Shown: one piece after another, positions 29,191 to 34,690 of the stretch
How the letters are laid out: each line of letters starts with the position of its first letter
Numbering within the stretch: position 1 is the first letter of the stretch
Origin: Psychroflexus curvus
Lineage (GTDB): Bacteria > Bacteroidota > Bacteroidia > Flavobacteriales > Flavobacteriaceae
DNA: 64,000 nt
NCBI RefSeq assembly: GCF_020164585.1
Contig: NZ_JAIQZF010000007.1
Location: 1 to 64,000, forward strand
Direction of reading: 5' to 3'
The notes under the pieces: generated by a model
The model's database searches: none
Told to the model about the DNA's origin: nothing
What the model saw: the letters and a program-made list of their open reading frames with translations, nothing else
Made by a program: the position numbers and the translations under genes

Positions 29191-30537
29191 ATGAAACGTT
29201 TATTCCAAATCATTTTATTACTCTTATCGGTTTCTACATTTGCCCAGGATCTTGCGGTTCTGTCTCAGAAAAAGCAATCGGAAGTGATTGACCAGTGGCT
29301 TGGAGAACGTTTAGAAACGGTTCTGCCAGAACTGATGGACCGGACCGGAATCGATATGTGGCTGGTGATTTCCAGAGAATATAATGAAGATCCGATTACC
29401 AAAACTTTGTTACCGAGCACCTGGCTGGCAGCAAGACGCAGAACAATACTGTTGATGTACAAAGCCGGTCCACAAGCTCAGGTAGAAAAACTTGCTGTGG
29501 CCAGGTATGATGTTGGTACAAAGTTCAAAAAAGCCTGGAACCCCGAAGAGCAACCCAACCAGTGGAAGCGTCTCGTAGAATTGATCAAAGAGCGAAACCC
29601 CGAAAATATCGGCATTAATTTGTCTAAAGATTTTGGTCACGCCGATGGACTCAATCATACAGAATACGAGTTGCTTCTAGACAATTTACCAGCCTCATTT
29701 CAAAAGAAACTGACCTCTGCAGAAGACCTGGCTGTGGGCTGGTTAGAAACGAGAACTGCTTCAGAAATGGCAACTTACAAACATATTCAAAGCATTGCTC
29801 ATGATATCATTCAGGAAGGCTTGTCTGAAGAAGTGATCACTACTGGCGTGACCAGCACGACCGATGTGGTGTGGTGGTACAGAGACAGAATAAAGGAACT
29901 GGGGCTGGAAACCTGGTTTCATCCCACAGTGGACATTCAGAGATCGAGTGCCGAAAGTAAAGAGCATTTGCGAACCTTCGATAACCATCCCAAACCGGAA
30001 ATTATCAGGCCTGGGGATGTGCTACACATCGACTTCGGGATTACCTATTTGAGGTTGAATACAGACACACAGCAACTGGCCTATGTTTTAAAAGCAGATG
30101 AAAAAGAAGTCCCGCAGTATCTGGTAGATGCCTTGAGTGTTGGTAATCGTTTGCAGGATATCCTGACGACCAATTTTAAAACAGGACGAACAGGTAATGA
30201 AATATTGAAAGCTGCCAGAACTCAAATGAAAGCTGAGGGCATTAACGGGACTATCTACACCCATCCTATGGGCTATCATGGTCATGCTGCAGGGCCTACA
30301 ATAGGTATGTGGGATAACCAAGGGAAAGTTCCTGGTTCTGGAGAGTATCAGTTATACACTAACACCGTTTACGCCATCGAACTCAATGCGGAAGTCTATC
30401 TGGAAGAATGGCAAAAGCCAGTGCGAATCATGCTGGAAGAAGGGGCGCATTATGATGGAGATAAGGTGGTGTATTTAAATGGAAGGCAGAAGGAATTTTT
30501 AACTATTCCAAGGCAGAAATCCTACTTAAACGAATAA
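29191..30537 (+). CDS. Secreted M24-family metallopeptidase (Xaa-Pro aminopeptidase-like), 448 aa
   Basis: An exported creatinase-fold peptidase. A signal peptide (MKRLFQIILLLLSVSTFAQ) precedes an N-terminal creatinase domain (about 25-170) and a C-terminal pita-bread domain. Metal ligands are recognisable: an Asp pair with the usual spacing in HIDFGITYLRLNTD, a His in HPMGYHGHAAGP, and Glu residues in YAIELNAEV and IMLEEGAH. Members remove N-terminal residues before proline. Located in the periplasm or outside, it probably helps digest peptides. It stands alone between the clpX terminator and the aromatic operon promoter. Confidence 0.85.
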   Translation: MKRLFQIILLLLSVSTFAQDLAVLSQKKQSEVIDQWLGERLETVLPELMDRTGIDMWLVISREYNEDPITKTLLPSTWLAARRRTILLMYKAGPQAQVEKLAVARYDVGTKFKKAWNPEEQPNQWKRLVELIKERNPENIGINLSKDFGHADGLNHTEYELLLDNLPASFQKKLTSAEDLAVGWLETRTASEMATYKHIQSIAHDIIQEGLSEEVITTGVTSTTDVVWWYRDRIKELGLETWFHPTVDIQRSSAESKEHLRTFDNHPKPEIIRPGDVLHIDFGITYLRLNTDTQQLAYVLKADEKEVPQYLVDALSVGNRLQDILTTNFKTGRTGNEILKAARTQMKAEGINGTIYTHPMGYHGHAAGPTIGMWDNQGKVPGSGEYQLYTNTVYAIELNAEVYLEEWQKPVRIMLEEGAHYDGDKVVYLNGRQKEFLTIPRQKSYLNE

Positions 30538-30564: not shown

Positions 30565-30593
30565 TTGTTTATTCAAAATTAATTTTAATTTAG
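30565..30593 (+). promoter_or_regulatory. Promoter of the aromatic amino acid operon
   Basis: TTG (30565-30567) and TAATTTAG (30586-30593) are separated by 18 nt, matching the Bacteroidota promoter pattern with one mismatch in the -7 element. A start near 30598 would leave only about 15 nt before the leader-peptide ATG. Confidence 0.55.
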
Positions 30594-30611
30594 CACTCTA
30601 TTAGAACAAAA

Positions 30612-30674
30612 ATGACAACACATATTTATTTTTATTTCAACTTTTATTTTGCTGATCCAGCGAAACGAGGTTGA
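30612..30674 (+). CDS. Phe/Tyr-rich attenuator leader peptide, 20 aa
   Basis: A short frame with ATG at 30612 and TGA at 30672-30674 encodes a peptide whose residues 5-13 read IYFYFNFYF, with seven aromatic residues (three Tyr, four Phe) in eight positions from residue 6. It precedes the pheA-aminotransferase-tyrA-DAHP synthase operon and overlaps the 5' arm of an antiterminator. This is the arrangement expected of a ribosome-stalling leader: shortage of charged tRNA-Phe or tRNA-Tyr stalls translation in the run. The composition, position and RNA folding all agree. It is too short for ordinary gene calling. Confidence 0.85.
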   Translation: MTTHIYFYFNFYFADPAKRG

Positions 30675-30729
30675 TATGAAATAAATTCATCATCAAAATA
30701 TATAAGCCTCGTTTTTACGAGGCTTTTTT
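30663..30729 (+). promoter_or_regulatory. Transcription attenuator (antiterminator/terminator switch)
   Basis: Terminator: AAGCCTCG (30704-30711) pairs with CGAGGCTT (30718-30725) over a 6-nt loop, with T run 30724-30729. Antiterminator: AAACGAGG (30663-30670), lying in the last leader codons, pairs perfectly with CCTCGTTT (30707-30714) and would disrupt the terminator's 5' arm. A ribosome at the leader stop (30672-30674) covers 30663-30670 and lets the terminator form. A ribosome stalled in the aromatic codons (30627-30650) leaves it free to form the antiterminator. pheA starts 6 bp after the T run. Confidence 0.82.
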
Positions 30730-30734
30730 AGTTT

Positions 30735-31559
30735 ATGAGAAAAAAGATAGCCATACAGGGAATTAAAGGATCCAACCATTACAAGGCTCTAACTGAGCTT
30801 TTTAATGAAGCTGAAGTAGAGGCTTTGGAATGCAATACATTTCAGGAGCTTGTCAATGCCGTTGTGACAGGAAAGTGTGAAAAAGCGGTGATGGCGATAG
30901 AAAACTCTATTGCGGGAAGTATTCTTCCCAACTACCGGCTTATTTTAGACCATCACCTGCAGATTACAGCAGAACATTACCTCAACATCAGCCATAATTT
31001 GGTGGCACTGCCAGGTCAGGGTTTAGCTGATTTGGTTCAGGTGAAATCTCATCAGATGGCACTTCATCAATGCAGTAACTTCTTCAGCAATCATCTTCAT
31101 ATCAATCTGATTGAAGATGTGGATACCGCTCTGCCGGCAAAAATTATTGCCGGACATCAGTTGATGGGTGTTGGTGCTTTGGTACCTAAAGGCTCTGCAG
31201 AACTTTTTCAGCTGGCAACACTAGCAGAAGATGTTCAGAACAACAGCTTAAACGAAACCCGTTTTGTAGTGGTACAAAAGCAAGCCAATGCAAGCTTGGA
31301 AGTGAATAAGGCAACTATTCAATTTGAAATGGCTCACGAATCCGGTAGTCTGGCTAAAGTTTTAAATACCATGTCAGCACATCATTTGAACTTGTCAAAA
31401 ATCCAAAGCATTCCCATTCCCTACGATATCTGGAGGTATGCGTTTATTGTGGATGTGAGTTTTTCAAAGGCAATTCAGTTTCAAAACGCCTTTTCAGAAC
31501 TATCTAAAATCAGTATCAATCCGACCTGTGTAGGTCAATACAAAAGTGGAAAATCATGA
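30735..31559 (+). CDS. pheA: Prephenate dehydratase, 274 aa
   Basis: The enzyme converts prephenate to phenylpyruvate, the step committed to phenylalanine. The N terminus (KIAIQGIKGSNHYKA) and the catalytic TRF motif (NETRFVVV, about residues 174-181) are present. A C-terminal ACT domain (about 193-270; HESGSLAKVLNTM, then LSKIQSIPIP) would bind phenylalanine for feedback inhibition. It is monofunctional: chorismate mutase is on the fourth gene of the operon instead. It is the first structural gene after the Phe/Tyr attenuator, and its stop overlaps the next start (ATGA). Confidence 0.93.
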   Translation: MRKKIAIQGIKGSNHYKALTELFNEAEVEALECNTFQELVNAVVTGKCEKAVMAIENSIAGSILPNYRLILDHHLQITAEHYLNISHNLVALPGQGLADLVQVKSHQMALHQCSNFFSNHLHINLIEDVDTALPAKIIAGHQLMGVGALVPKGSAELFQLATLAEDVQNNSLNETRFVVVQKQANASLEVNKATIQFEMAHESGSLAKVLNTMSAHHLNLSKIQSIPIPYDIWRYAFIVDVSFSKAIQFQNAFSELSKISINPTCVGQYKSGKS

Positions 31560-32716
31560 TTTCAGTATCCAACCGACTTCAGGAAACCAAAGAATACTAC
31601 TTCAGTAAAAAATTGAGGGAAGTAGCTCAGCTCAAAAAGCAGGGCAAACCCATCATCAATTTAGGGATTGGAAGCCCGGATCTGGCTCCCCCCCAGGAAG
31701 TAGTAGAAGAATTGATGAAAGCGACACAGGCGCCAGGCGCTTACCAATACCAGGCCTACAAAGGACTCGATGAGTTGCGGGAAGCCATGTGCAATTTTTA
31801 TCAAACCCATTATAAAGTCGATGTGAATCAAGCTGAGCAGGTTTTACCACTGATGGGTTCCAAAGAAGGTATTGCGCTCATTTCTATGGCCTTTTTGAAT
31901 GAAGGTGATGAGGTCCTGGTGCCCAATCCTGGATATCCCACCTATCAGGCTGCCACCAAACTTTTGAATGCAAAGTTGATTTCTTATGACCTGACAGAAG
32001 AAAACACCTGGCATCCGGAGGTGGAGGCCCTTCAGAAACTGGATTTATCCCGAGTTAAACTGATGTGGATCAATTATCCCAACATGCCCACCGGCGAAAC
32101 AGCCGATAAGGAAAAACTTCAGGAGTTGATCCGCTTTGCCAAAGCCAATTCTATTCTTTTGGTAAATGATAATCCTTACAGCATGGTGCTTACCGATGAG
32201 AAATTTTCCATTTTTCAACTGGAAGGCGCTCACGAAGTTTGTTTAGAATTGAATTCTCTGAGTAAGTCCTTCAATCTGGCCGGTTTCAGAGTCGGGTTTT
32301 TGGTAGGTAATTCTGATTTTATATCAGCTGTTTTAAAAGTGAAGAGCAATATGGATAGCGGCATGTTTTTCCCCATTCAAAAAGCAGCCACTAAAGCTTT
32401 AAACCTGGATATAAGCTGGTTTGCCAGGCAAAATGACATCTACAAAAACCGAAGAGCACTCATCTGGGATATATGCGACTCTTTAGATCTGACCGTTAAT
32501 AAAAATGCCGTAGGACTTTTTGTTTGGGCAAAAATCAACGCTTCACTTTCTGCTGAAGAACTTGCAGATGAATTGTTGTATGATAAAAATATTTTTGTGA
32601 CACCCGGAACTGTATTTGGGGATAACGGAGGGAATTACGTTCGTTTTTCGCTTTGCGTGTCTGAGGATGAACTGGAAGTATGTAAAAAACGAATTTTAAA
32701 ACCCAAAGCCGTATGA
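31556..32716 (+). CDS. PLP-dependent class I/II aminotransferase, 386 aa
   Basis: A fold-type I aminotransferase. The substrate-binding segment is LGIGSPDLAPP, the PLP-phosphate and ring contacts lie around NYPNMPTGE and VNDNPYSM, and the Schiff-base lysine is in LNSLSKSFNLAGFRVGF. Its place between pheA and tyrA, with 4-bp ATGA overlaps on both sides, indicates that it transaminates phenylpyruvate and 4-hydroxyphenylpyruvate to phenylalanine and tyrosine. The closest-looking family also includes LL-diaminopimelate aminotransferases, so substrate assignment rests on context. Confidence 0.88.
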   Translation: MISVSNRLQETKEYYFSKKLREVAQLKKQGKPIINLGIGSPDLAPPQEVVEELMKATQAPGAYQYQAYKGLDELREAMCNFYQTHYKVDVNQAEQVLPLMGSKEGIALISMAFLNEGDEVLVPNPGYPTYQAATKLLNAKLISYDLTEENTWHPEVEALQKLDLSRVKLMWINYPNMPTGETADKEKLQELIRFAKANSILLVNDNPYSMVLTDEKFSIFQLEGAHEVCLELNSLSKSFNLAGFRVGFLVGNSDFISAVLKVKSNMDSGMFFPIQKAATKALNLDISWFARQNDIYKNRRALIWDICDSLDLTVNKNAVGLFVWAKINASLSAEELADELLYDKNIFVTPGTVFGDNGGNYVRFSLCVSEDELEVCKKRILKPKAV

Positions 32717-33582
32717 ATATAGCATGTATAGGCCTGGGATTGATCGGAGGCTCTTTTGCCTTGTCCATAAAAAAGAATTTTCCCGAAATAAAGCGGTTTG
32801 GGATGGATAAAAATCCGGAACATCTGGAGAAAGCTCTGGAATTGAACATCATAGATGAAGCTCTGGAGGAAACCGATTTGCCTAGGATGGATGTGGTGGT
32901 CGTGAGTATCCCTGTTGATAAAGCAAATGCAGTGATTCAAGCCGTGTTGGATAAAGTACATTCCAAGGCTCTAGTGATGGATATGGGTTCGACAAAAGGG
33001 GAATTATGCCAATCGATTTCTGACCACCCAAAACGCCATCAATTTTTGGCAGCGCATCCTATTGCAGGAACCGAGTTTTCTGGTCCTGAAGCTGCTTTCA
33101 GTTTACTCTTTGAAAACAAAACTATGATTTTCTGTGATGTGGACGCTACCCAGACCGATCGTGTTGAACTGGCTAAAAGTCTGATTGCCCCTTTAGATAT
33201 GAGCCTAAAATATATGGGGGCCAAAGAGCATGATAAGCATCTGGCTTATGTGTCTCACCTGTCGCACATCAGCTCTTTTATGCTCGGTAAAACGATCTTG
33301 CAAGTTGAACAAAACGATAAGACGATTTTTGATTTGGCGGGCAGTGGATTTGCTTCCACAGTGAGGTTAGCCAAATCCAACCCTGTGACCTGGACAGCGA
33401 TATTTAAAGAAAATCAAAGTGAAGTACTTCAGGCTTTAGAGGGATATATTCAGAATCTAAAAACATTTCAAAAGCAATTAGAAACTCAAAATTATACTGA
33501 GATAGAACAACAGTTGGTCAATGCCAATGAGCTTAAACCTATTTTAAACGGAATACTAAAAAAAGAGAAAAATGGAAATTAA
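32713..33582 (+). CDS. tyrA: Prephenate dehydrogenase, 289 aa
   Basis: This NAD(P)-dependent oxidative decarboxylase turns prephenate into 4-hydroxyphenylpyruvate for tyrosine. The N-terminal Rossmann motif is IGLGLIGGSFA. The catalytic and binding region includes DMGSTKGELC, AHPIAGTEFSGPEAA and YVSHLSHISSFML. No ACT domain follows, so feedback control is not obvious. It overlaps the aminotransferase gene by 4 bp and the DAHP synthase gene by 11 bp, so all four enzymes are translated from one message under the attenuator. Confidence 0.93.
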   Translation: MNIACIGLGLIGGSFALSIKKNFPEIKRFGMDKNPEHLEKALELNIIDEALEETDLPRMDVVVVSIPVDKANAVIQAVLDKVHSKALVMDMGSTKGELCQSISDHPKRHQFLAAHPIAGTEFSGPEAAFSLLFENKTMIFCDVDATQTDRVELAKSLIAPLDMSLKYMGAKEHDKHLAYVSHLSHISSFMLGKTILQVEQNDKTIFDLAGSGFASTVRLAKSNPVTWTAIFKENQSEVLQALEGYIQNLKTFQKQLETQNYTEIEQQLVNANELKPILNGILKKEKNGN

Positions 33583-34654
33583 CAACACACAAAGACAATG
33601 GCTAGAGGCGTTCAACCTGGATCATCCGCTGGTTATTGCGGGACCATGTAGCGCAGAAACAGAAGAACAGGTCGTGAAAATCGCCCATCAGCTTAAGGAT
33701 ACCGACACCAGCGTCATGCGGGCAGGCATCTGGAAACCAAGAACACGACCTGGGAACTTTGAAGGTGTAGGGGCCATTGGCTTGGAATGGTTAAAAACCG
33801 CCAAAAAAGAAACAGGAATGAAATTGGCGACCGAAGTTGCCAATAAAACTCATGTGGAAATGGCCCTTAAGGCTGATATAGATGTGCTTTGGATTGGAGC
33901 AAGAAGTACGGTGAGCCCGTTTATCGTTCAGGAAATCGCAGATGCTTTGAAAGGAACGGATAAAGTGGTTTTGGTCAAAAATCCTGTGAATCCAGATCTA
34001 GCCCTTTGGCTGGGAGCTGTAGAACGACTTCATGATGCCAATATCAAAAATTTGGGCGTGATTCACAGAGGCTTTTCGACTTACGAAAAAACCAAATACA
34101 GAAACAACCCCGAATGGCAAATCGCGATTGATCTGCAGTCTGAATTCCCGGATTTACCCATCATTTTAGATCCTTCGCACATCGCCGGCCGTCGGGATAT
34201 CATATTTGATATTTGCCAGACAGGACTGGATCTTAACTTTGACGGCATTATGGTCGAGACTCATTTCGACCCTGATAATGCCTGGAGTGATGCCAAACAA
34301 CAAATCACACCCAAGGCTTTAGACCAGATGACCATCGATTTGAAAATGAGAAAGGAGTTTACGGAGGCTACTGCTTTTCAAAACAAACTTCAGACCTTAA
34401 GAACTAAAATTGATGTGGTGGATCATCAACTGATCGATTTGCTAGGCAAGCGTATGAAAATCGCAGATGACATCGGAAAGCTTAAGAAGAAAAACAATGT
34501 TGCTATTCTTCAGGCTAAACGCTGGAATTTTATTCTGGATACGATGATAGAAGCTGGTGCTGAACATAATTTAAGTGAAGAATTTATCACTAAGATTCTT
34601 AAAGCCATCCACGAAGAATCCATAGGTCACCAGCATAAAATTATCAGTGAGTAA
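33572..34654 (+). CDS. Bifunctional DAHP synthase / chorismate mutase, 360 aa
   Basis: The N-terminal domain (about 1-260) is a KDO8P-like type I DAHP synthase, condensing phosphoenolpyruvate with erythrose 4-phosphate: VIAGPCSAETEEQV, RAGIWKPRTRPGNFEG and ILDPSHIAGRRD are its signatures. The C-terminal part (about 270-360) is an AroQ-type chorismate mutase (TLRTKIDVVDHQLIDLLGKR with KLKKKNNVAILQAKRW). The protein thus joins the first step of the shikimate pathway to the branch step to prephenate, and such fusions are allosterically controlled by prephenate. It is the last gene of the operon, closed by a terminator at 34662-34690. Confidence 0.93.
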   Translation: MEINNTQRQWLEAFNLDHPLVIAGPCSAETEEQVVKIAHQLKDTDTSVMRAGIWKPRTRPGNFEGVGAIGLEWLKTAKKETGMKLATEVANKTHVEMALKADIDVLWIGARSTVSPFIVQEIADALKGTDKVVLVKNPVNPDLALWLGAVERLHDANIKNLGVIHRGFSTYEKTKYRNNPEWQIAIDLQSEFPDLPIILDPSHIAGRRDIIFDICQTGLDLNFDGIMVETHFDPDNAWSDAKQQITPKALDQMTIDLKMRKEFTEATAFQNKLQTLRTKIDVVDHQLIDLLGKRMKIADDIGKLKKKNNVAILQAKRWNFILDTMIEAGAEHNLSEEFITKILKAIHEESIGHQHKIISE

Positions 34655-34661
34655 TCCACTA

Positions 34662-34690
34662 CCCCCGGTGGCTTTGCATCGGGGTTTTTG
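34662..34690 (+). terminator. Terminator of the aromatic amino acid operon
   Basis: CCCCGGTG (34663-34670) pairs with CATCGGGG (34677-34684), one G-U pair, around a 6-nt loop. A TTTTT run follows, just 7 bp after the last stop codon. Confidence 0.8.

Follow-up and report, generated by a model that had tools for sequence, protein, structure and literature searches.

What is the short, aromatic-rich reading frame that stands in front of a four-gene aromatic operon in the flavobacterium Psychroflexus curvus? The frame lies in the first 64,000 nucleotides (nt) of contig NZ_JAIQZF010000007.1 (assembly GCF_020164585.1), the whole of which we call the window, between a peptidase-like gene and pheA. 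An original prediction, made from the letters alone, had read this region as a complete Phe/Tyr attenuator. We find that the pheA leader is very probably a classical ribosome-mediated transcription attenuator, judging from its sequence and from those of its relatives. Below we describe its parts, their conservation and covariation, the alternatives that have to be weighed, and the fate of the leader in lineages that have lost the genes for Phe and Tyr synthesis.

Anatomy of the pheA leader

The predicted 20-codon leader with seven Phe/Tyr codons in a run of eight is present in the sequence, and is the sole short open reading frame (ORF; 8-45 amino acids) on either strand of the window with at least 7 Phe or Tyr per 8 residues; three dinucleotide shuffles of the window contained no short ORF with 7 or more Phe/Tyr in 8 residues. 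The perfect match proposed between AAACGAGG at 30663-30670 and CCTCGTTT at 30707-30714 also exists, and with G-T pairs allowed these core strands extend to a segment 2:3 match of 11 pairs (GAAACGAGGTT with AGCCTCGTTTT). The downstream partner, as had been claimed, is the 5′ half of a terminator found both in the sequence and by a terminator scan, with a stem that spans 30704-30725 and a T-run that reaches 30729. The leader RNA as a whole (30600-30735) folds at -34.3 kcal/mol (z = -6.25), a value that none of 200 shuffles equalled, and since the minimum free energy (MFE) fold adds a competing 1:2 hairpin at 30624-30690, absent from the original prediction, that ties up segment 2, all four classical attenuator segments are present.

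The features that characterize ribosome-mediated attenuators are thereby found together at one locus. Specifically, i) end-product codons are clustered in a short frame of predicted translation, seven of eight being Phe/Tyr, and the cluster is kept in relatives; ii) an intrinsic terminator (30704-30729) lies between the leader frame and the first gene; iii) an alternative antiterminator overlaps the end of the leader; and iv) the last aromatic codon ends 11 nt 5′ of segment 2, a spacing, reckoned from the footprint of the ribosome, that would leave segment 2 free when a ribosome stalls and covered when it terminates.

Conservation in Psychroflexus and the Flavobacteriaceae

Absence of the short frame from relatives had been named as an outcome that would speak against attenuation, and it was not seen. 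A Phe/Tyr frame occurs at 10 of 10 further Psychroflexus loci, or in 11 of 11 genomes counting the window (L037 and L003 are one genome, and L037 was dropped from later counts). PheA was detected in 268 of 299 genomes of the family Flavobacteriaceae, and a Phe/Tyr leader stands at all 30 of the best PheA loci, the window's own included. A covariance model built from 39 leaders (R1), for which 30 of the 299 family genomes supplied training sequences, matches in 255 of the 299, with a single match in 252 of these; comparison of the match lists indicates that 252 of the 255 R1-positive genomes also have pheA. In every one of 115 family genomes inspected, drawn from the PheA and R1 loci plus the better-scoring R1 matches among those listed, the frame contains Phe as well as Tyr codons, joined by a Trp codon in 75. 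Where flanks could be read, pheA lies directly downstream on the same strand (35 of 35 loci), its first aligned codon 1-100 nt past the match. Two contig-end pieces of one genome (G048; L074 and L080) were excluded from the counts, and extra low-scoring R1 matches in G104, G083, and G048 (L081-L083) were set aside, their downstream genes appearing unrelated by eye.

The pattern of codon change favors a translated frame, for in the FYFYFFF block of the 39 leaders (one type) codon positions 1, 2, and 3 differ by 0.015, 0.098, and 0.224 per site pair, the freedom being greatest at the third position. Codon 7 of the same leaders is TGG in 24, TTT in 7, TAT in 7, and TTC in 1, an exchange of Trp, Phe, and Tyr that favors a signal pooling the aromatics. 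Among a wider set of 159 leaders (115 from the family, 9 from other Psychroflexus, L122 and L123, and 33 from outside the family) a Trp codon is found in 87, including 9 of the 33 outside the family. The original prediction had one leader sensing both Phe and Tyr; the Phe/Tyr leaders of relatives with a Trp codon may read all three aromatics, and the added codon would fit the supply of all three by DAHP synthase. What tells against this extension is that the window leader has zero Trp codons, so that the three-amino-acid reading rests on the relatives.

Compensatory change in both helices

An alignment of relatives had been suggested as a check, and it reveals compensatory changes in the terminator and antiterminator helices along with the conserved leader frame, both of which support ribosome-mediated attenuation. 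Because alignment A2 places segment 2 one base out of register in the ten YYTYF-type leaders, pair counts were made on the other 29 of the 39. In these 29 sequences 99.6% of terminator cells are paired, with 22 double-sided changes versus 6.4 in shuffles, and 90.6% of antiterminator cells are paired, with 20 double-sided changes versus 7.4; sliding the alignment by one column cuts pairing to 52-65% and 51-57%, respectively.

Across the 159 leaders, segment 2 pairing outscores the average of its own shuffles in 158, and in 148 a leader's own terminator arm is a better partner for segment 2 than the average dissimilar arm taken from other leaders (17.4 versus 12.3). When segment 2 is taken as the best complement, the last aromatic codon lies 6-16 nt from it in 155 of 159, and by the script's criterion the stop codon falls inside or shortly past segment 2 in 146; in 150 of 159 folds segment 2 finds its partner in the upstream leader RNA, versus 58% with the upstream part shuffled. 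L040 and L041, which the script paired wrongly, are kept in these counts, and the terminator or segment 2 that it assigned is doubtful in L101 and in the first leader of L093. The parts of the element, their conservation, and their covariation are matters of observation, as is the tracking of gene content by the codons described below.

Leaders outside the family

Across a phylum-wide sample of 296 genomes, 258 gave a PheA match, and 228 of these 258 belong to families other than the Flavobacteriaceae. We read the regions upstream of pheA in 38 of these 228 (31 genomes of the same class with coordinates plus 7 other high scorers), a sample of the higher-scoring families that left out six genomes of family f2 from the same order. 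A Phe/Tyr-rich frame lies upstream of pheA in 33 of the 38 regions, with segment 2 found at 6-16 nt in 31 of these 33, and a leader heads 37 of the 38 operons, across 11 families. In four genomes of family f8 (L218-L221) a Phe/Tyr leader and terminator precede the gene for DAHP synthase-chorismate mutase (two of the four proteins were checked), and pheA lies further down a rearranged cluster.

Two tandem Phe/Tyr leaders, each followed by a terminator-like hairpin, were seen upstream of pheA in L087 and L093 (family f9) and in L091 (family f5), some of the segment 2 and terminator assignments having been made by eye. Tandem attenuators that respond to different signals are described for Salmonella mgtCBR (PMC3641672).

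Proposed mechanism and alternatives

Classical leader-peptide attenuation is a textbook mechanism, and from the arrangement of the pheA leader we infer its translation, stalling, termination, and read-through. Transcription of the leader and translation of its 20-codon peptide would proceed together. With charged tRNA-Phe and tRNA-Tyr both ample, the ribosome would reach the stop codon and cover segment 2, segment 3 would pair with segment 4 to form the terminator, and transcription would end before pheA; with either charged tRNA scarce, the ribosome would stall at the aromatic codons, segment 2 would be free to pair with segment 3, no terminator would form, and all four genes would be transcribed. 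If the leader were not translated at all, segments 1 and 2 would pair and the terminator would be the default.

Several results weigh against so simple an account. Only 3 pairs in each helix show double changes, a number that 73 of 500 terminator shuffles and 120 of 500 antiterminator shuffles attain, and the tally of further pair types is reached by 490 and 500 of 500, respectively. RNAalifold applied to all 39 leaders recovered the terminator only, and the 1:2 hairpin is therefore not one conserved consensus fold. In the family, 16 genomes with pheA have no R1 match, and the one of these inspected (G023, L226) lacks a Phe/Tyr leader across the 844 nt before its pheA; outside it, a genome of family f50 (10 kb contig) shows no leader. 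Finally, the Rfam search proposed with the original prediction brought no family to its gathering score in the window.

Of the alternatives, the one that survives best is a leader whose nascent peptide halts the ribosome from within the exit tunnel when a small molecule is sensed, the codons counting only for the residues they specify. Part of the family does keep the peptide beyond its aromatic codons (YF-W/F/Y-N-G-FYFYFFF-KRG). Arrest peptides, however, conserve particular residues, whereas in these leaders the aromatic residues interchange (codon 7 being TGG, TTT, TAT, or TTC), leaders of other families stay dense in aromatics but vary their order, and Trp-Trp replaces Phe/Tyr where the Phe/Tyr genes have been lost; we regard peptide-mediated arrest as very unlikely. 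Riboswitches, T-boxes, and protein-bound terminators control aromatic genes in other bacteria, and a metabolite- or tRNA-sensing RNA or a protein-bound terminator could dispense with leader translation here too, but what is conserved is an open frame free to vary at third positions, and no Rfam match in the window reaches the gathering score, which leaves such devices highly improbable. Just as improbable is a terminator belonging to the M24 peptidase-like gene upstream (same strand, ending at 30537) beside a chance frame in AT-rich DNA, where Phe/Tyr codons come cheaply, with pheA transcribed from elsewhere: we reject the chance frame as unique in the window and absent from its three shuffles, and the mere upstream terminator since the frame and both helices, with their compensatory changes, are kept in relatives.

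Trp-Trp leaders in lineages without pheA and tyrA

The strongest line of evidence is a natural experiment, provided by lineages that have lost pheA and tyrA. No PheA match was found in 31 of the 299 family genomes. None of these 31 shows a tyrA domain above the curated cut-off (G089 and G079 give weak sub-threshold matches), versus all 7 genomes used for comparison. The DAHP synthase-chorismate mutase gene is retained in 25 of the 31. Setting aside G116 (cut by a contig end), G062 (a tyrA-like frame at a contig end, by eye), and G276 (an aminotransferase precedes) leaves 22 regions in which the gene stands solo, and a short ORF with Trp-Trp occurs within 300 nt 5′ of it in 13 of the 22, versus 22 of 4400 dinucleotide shuffles. 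Of the 13 genomes whose trpA match exceeds the cut-off, 11 have such a leader, versus 2 of the 9 without one (Fisher p = 0.0073); one trpA-positive exception (G101) has a single Trp, and one trpA-negative genome with Trp-Trp (G202) is 68% complete.

Built from Phe/Tyr leaders, R1 aligns end to end with 7 of the 13 Trp-Trp leaders at E ≤ 0.06 (the E-values are rough), best of all L147 (1e-6), L146 (3e-6), and L127 (1e-4). These full-length matches suggest that the Trp-Trp leaders are the same element recoded, convergence being the alternative. The association with trpA is weakened by the fact that the Fisher test ignores relatedness: seven genera contribute two genomes each to the 22, and there are therefore fewer events than counts. 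Moreover, G263 has a Trp-Trp leader without a trpA match, and G042 keeps trpA and has no Trp-Trp leader.

G276 (L078) keeps the aminotransferase and DAHP synthase with no pheA or tyrA match, and a Met-rich frame with one Trp (MQNMQMMYHKWLMLFLLKRV) precedes its aminotransferase gene.

We lean, by no great measure, toward an old Bacteroidota attenuator, now seen in 12 families, in which Phe, Tyr, and Trp codons can stand in for one another as inputs to the entire aromatic pathway. Its codons would be rewritten as the pathway shrinks, from Phe/Tyr (often with Trp) as long as the Phe and Tyr genes persist, to Trp-Trp where Trp synthesis alone remains, to no such leader once that has gone as well, and in some lineages the element is doubled in tandem.

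The operon and other leaders of the genome

The genes predicted downstream are borne out as to family by Pfam (Table 1), and the four overlap or abut across 30735-34654. Prephenate dehydrogenase is the only operon protein that passes a curated NCBIfam cut-off. The aminotransferase scores highest with LL-diaminopimelate aminotransferase models, below their cut-offs; its likely role in Phe/Tyr synthesis is read from context. The PheA of the window shares 90% identity with its counterparts in P. sediminis and P. aurantiacus, also Psychroflexus. By comparison with Bacteroidota promoters, we take TTG at 30565-30567 to be a probable upstream promoter element. The consensus used for the -7 box is quoted in PMC9723704, which also states that translation initiation in Bacteroidota uses signals other than Shine-Dalgarno.

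Table 1. Positions of the leader elements and operon genes in the window.
Feature	Positions	Strand	Basis
Likely -7 promoter box TAATTTAG (consensus TAnnTTTG)	30586-30593	+	TTAG part kept in alignments of relatives
Leader peptide frame MTTHIYFYFNFYFADPAKRG, 20 codons	30612-30674	+	ATG at 30612, stop TGA 30672-30674; read from sequence
Segment 1, 5′ side of 1:2 hairpin, overlaps regulatory codons	30624-30654	+	MFE fold
Regulatory codons Tyr Phe Tyr Phe Asn Phe Tyr Phe (7/8 Phe/Tyr)	30627-30650	+	Sequence; unique within window
Segment 2, GAAACGAGGTT, antiterminator strand over last codons and first stop base	30662-30672	+	11-pair complement of segment 3 region; covariation
Segment 3, AAGCCTCGT, terminator 5′ arm, partner of segment 2	30704-30712	+	Sequence, complementarity, covariation
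Segment 4, ACGAGGCTT, plus T-run; intrinsic terminator 30704-30729 with segment 3	30717-30729	+	Terminator scan, covariation
pheA, prephenate dehydratase (PF00800)	30735-31559	+	Pfam
Class I/II aminotransferase (PF00155)	31556-32716	+	Pfam; NCBIfam below cut-off
tyrA, prephenate dehydrogenase (NF006307 above cut-off; PF02153, PF20463)	32713-33582	+	NCBIfam, Pfam
DAHP synthase-chorismate mutase fusion (PF00793 + PF01817)	33572-34654	+	Pfam
Terminator-like hairpin then T-run, after last gene of operon	34663-34684	+	Consensus scan only; 6 such sites in window versus 5.0 expected

Candidate leaders also precede other biosynthetic genes of the same genome. A Trp leader, MFNNKNNSWWWSLLRQTS (Trp-Trp-Trp), stands directly before trpE (PF04715, PF00425) and is followed by a hairpin and T-run (G000:C23, L217 4041-4097), and a His leader, MKNYNLHHHLPSSLNAVGM (His-His-His), lies upstream of hisG with a terminator hairpin and T-run behind it (G000:C1, L215 1206-1265); no obvious leader was found in the region read at ilvD.

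Relation to known systems

The region's top Rfam match is RF01859 Phe_leader (31.5 bits, E 0.0011, model 1-125 in full length at 30614-30732), well below the 55 bits of its gathering score. That family, of enterobacterial origin, is likewise a Phe-rich leader before pheA, but the window leader mixes Phe and Tyr, its operon adds tyrA and DAHP synthase-chorismate mutase, and it belongs to another phylum. With the classical trp, his, thr, and ilv attenuators it shares regulatory codons, an occluded segment 2, a shared segment 3, and an intrinsic terminator, and it differs from them in its aromatic codon set and in codons that shift with pathway loss, the sequence relation having been compared via Rfam only. 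In the thr and ilv systems, too, one leader reads several amino acids.

In Flavobacterium psychrophilum, a structured 5′ element upstream of pheA, conserved in Flavobacteriaceae, has been reported, and leader-peptide attenuation has been inferred for amino-acid operons (PMC9723704); section 19 of that paper does not name the pheA element as a leader-peptide case, and gives there no codons, helices, or spread beyond Flavobacteriaceae. Short ORFs resembling leader peptides are mentioned for Bacteroides thetaiotaomicron (PMC7366714), and leader-peptide systems were said in 2010 not to be known outside Proteobacteria and Actinobacteria (PMC2965389). The mechanism is therefore old and a structured element upstream of pheA is already in print; for the phylum-wide spread, the codon switch, and the tandem copies we did not find a prior report in the open-access literature, a scope that most subscription papers fall outside. 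A comparative study of attenuation across bacteria by Lopatovskaya in 2010 may already include Bacteroidota cases.

The element is a possible new Rfam family, and the lineages without Phe/Tyr genes offer a direct test of whether regulatory codons follow the end product. If our reading is true, such leaders would be one of the principal means by which many Bacteroidota govern aromatic synthesis.
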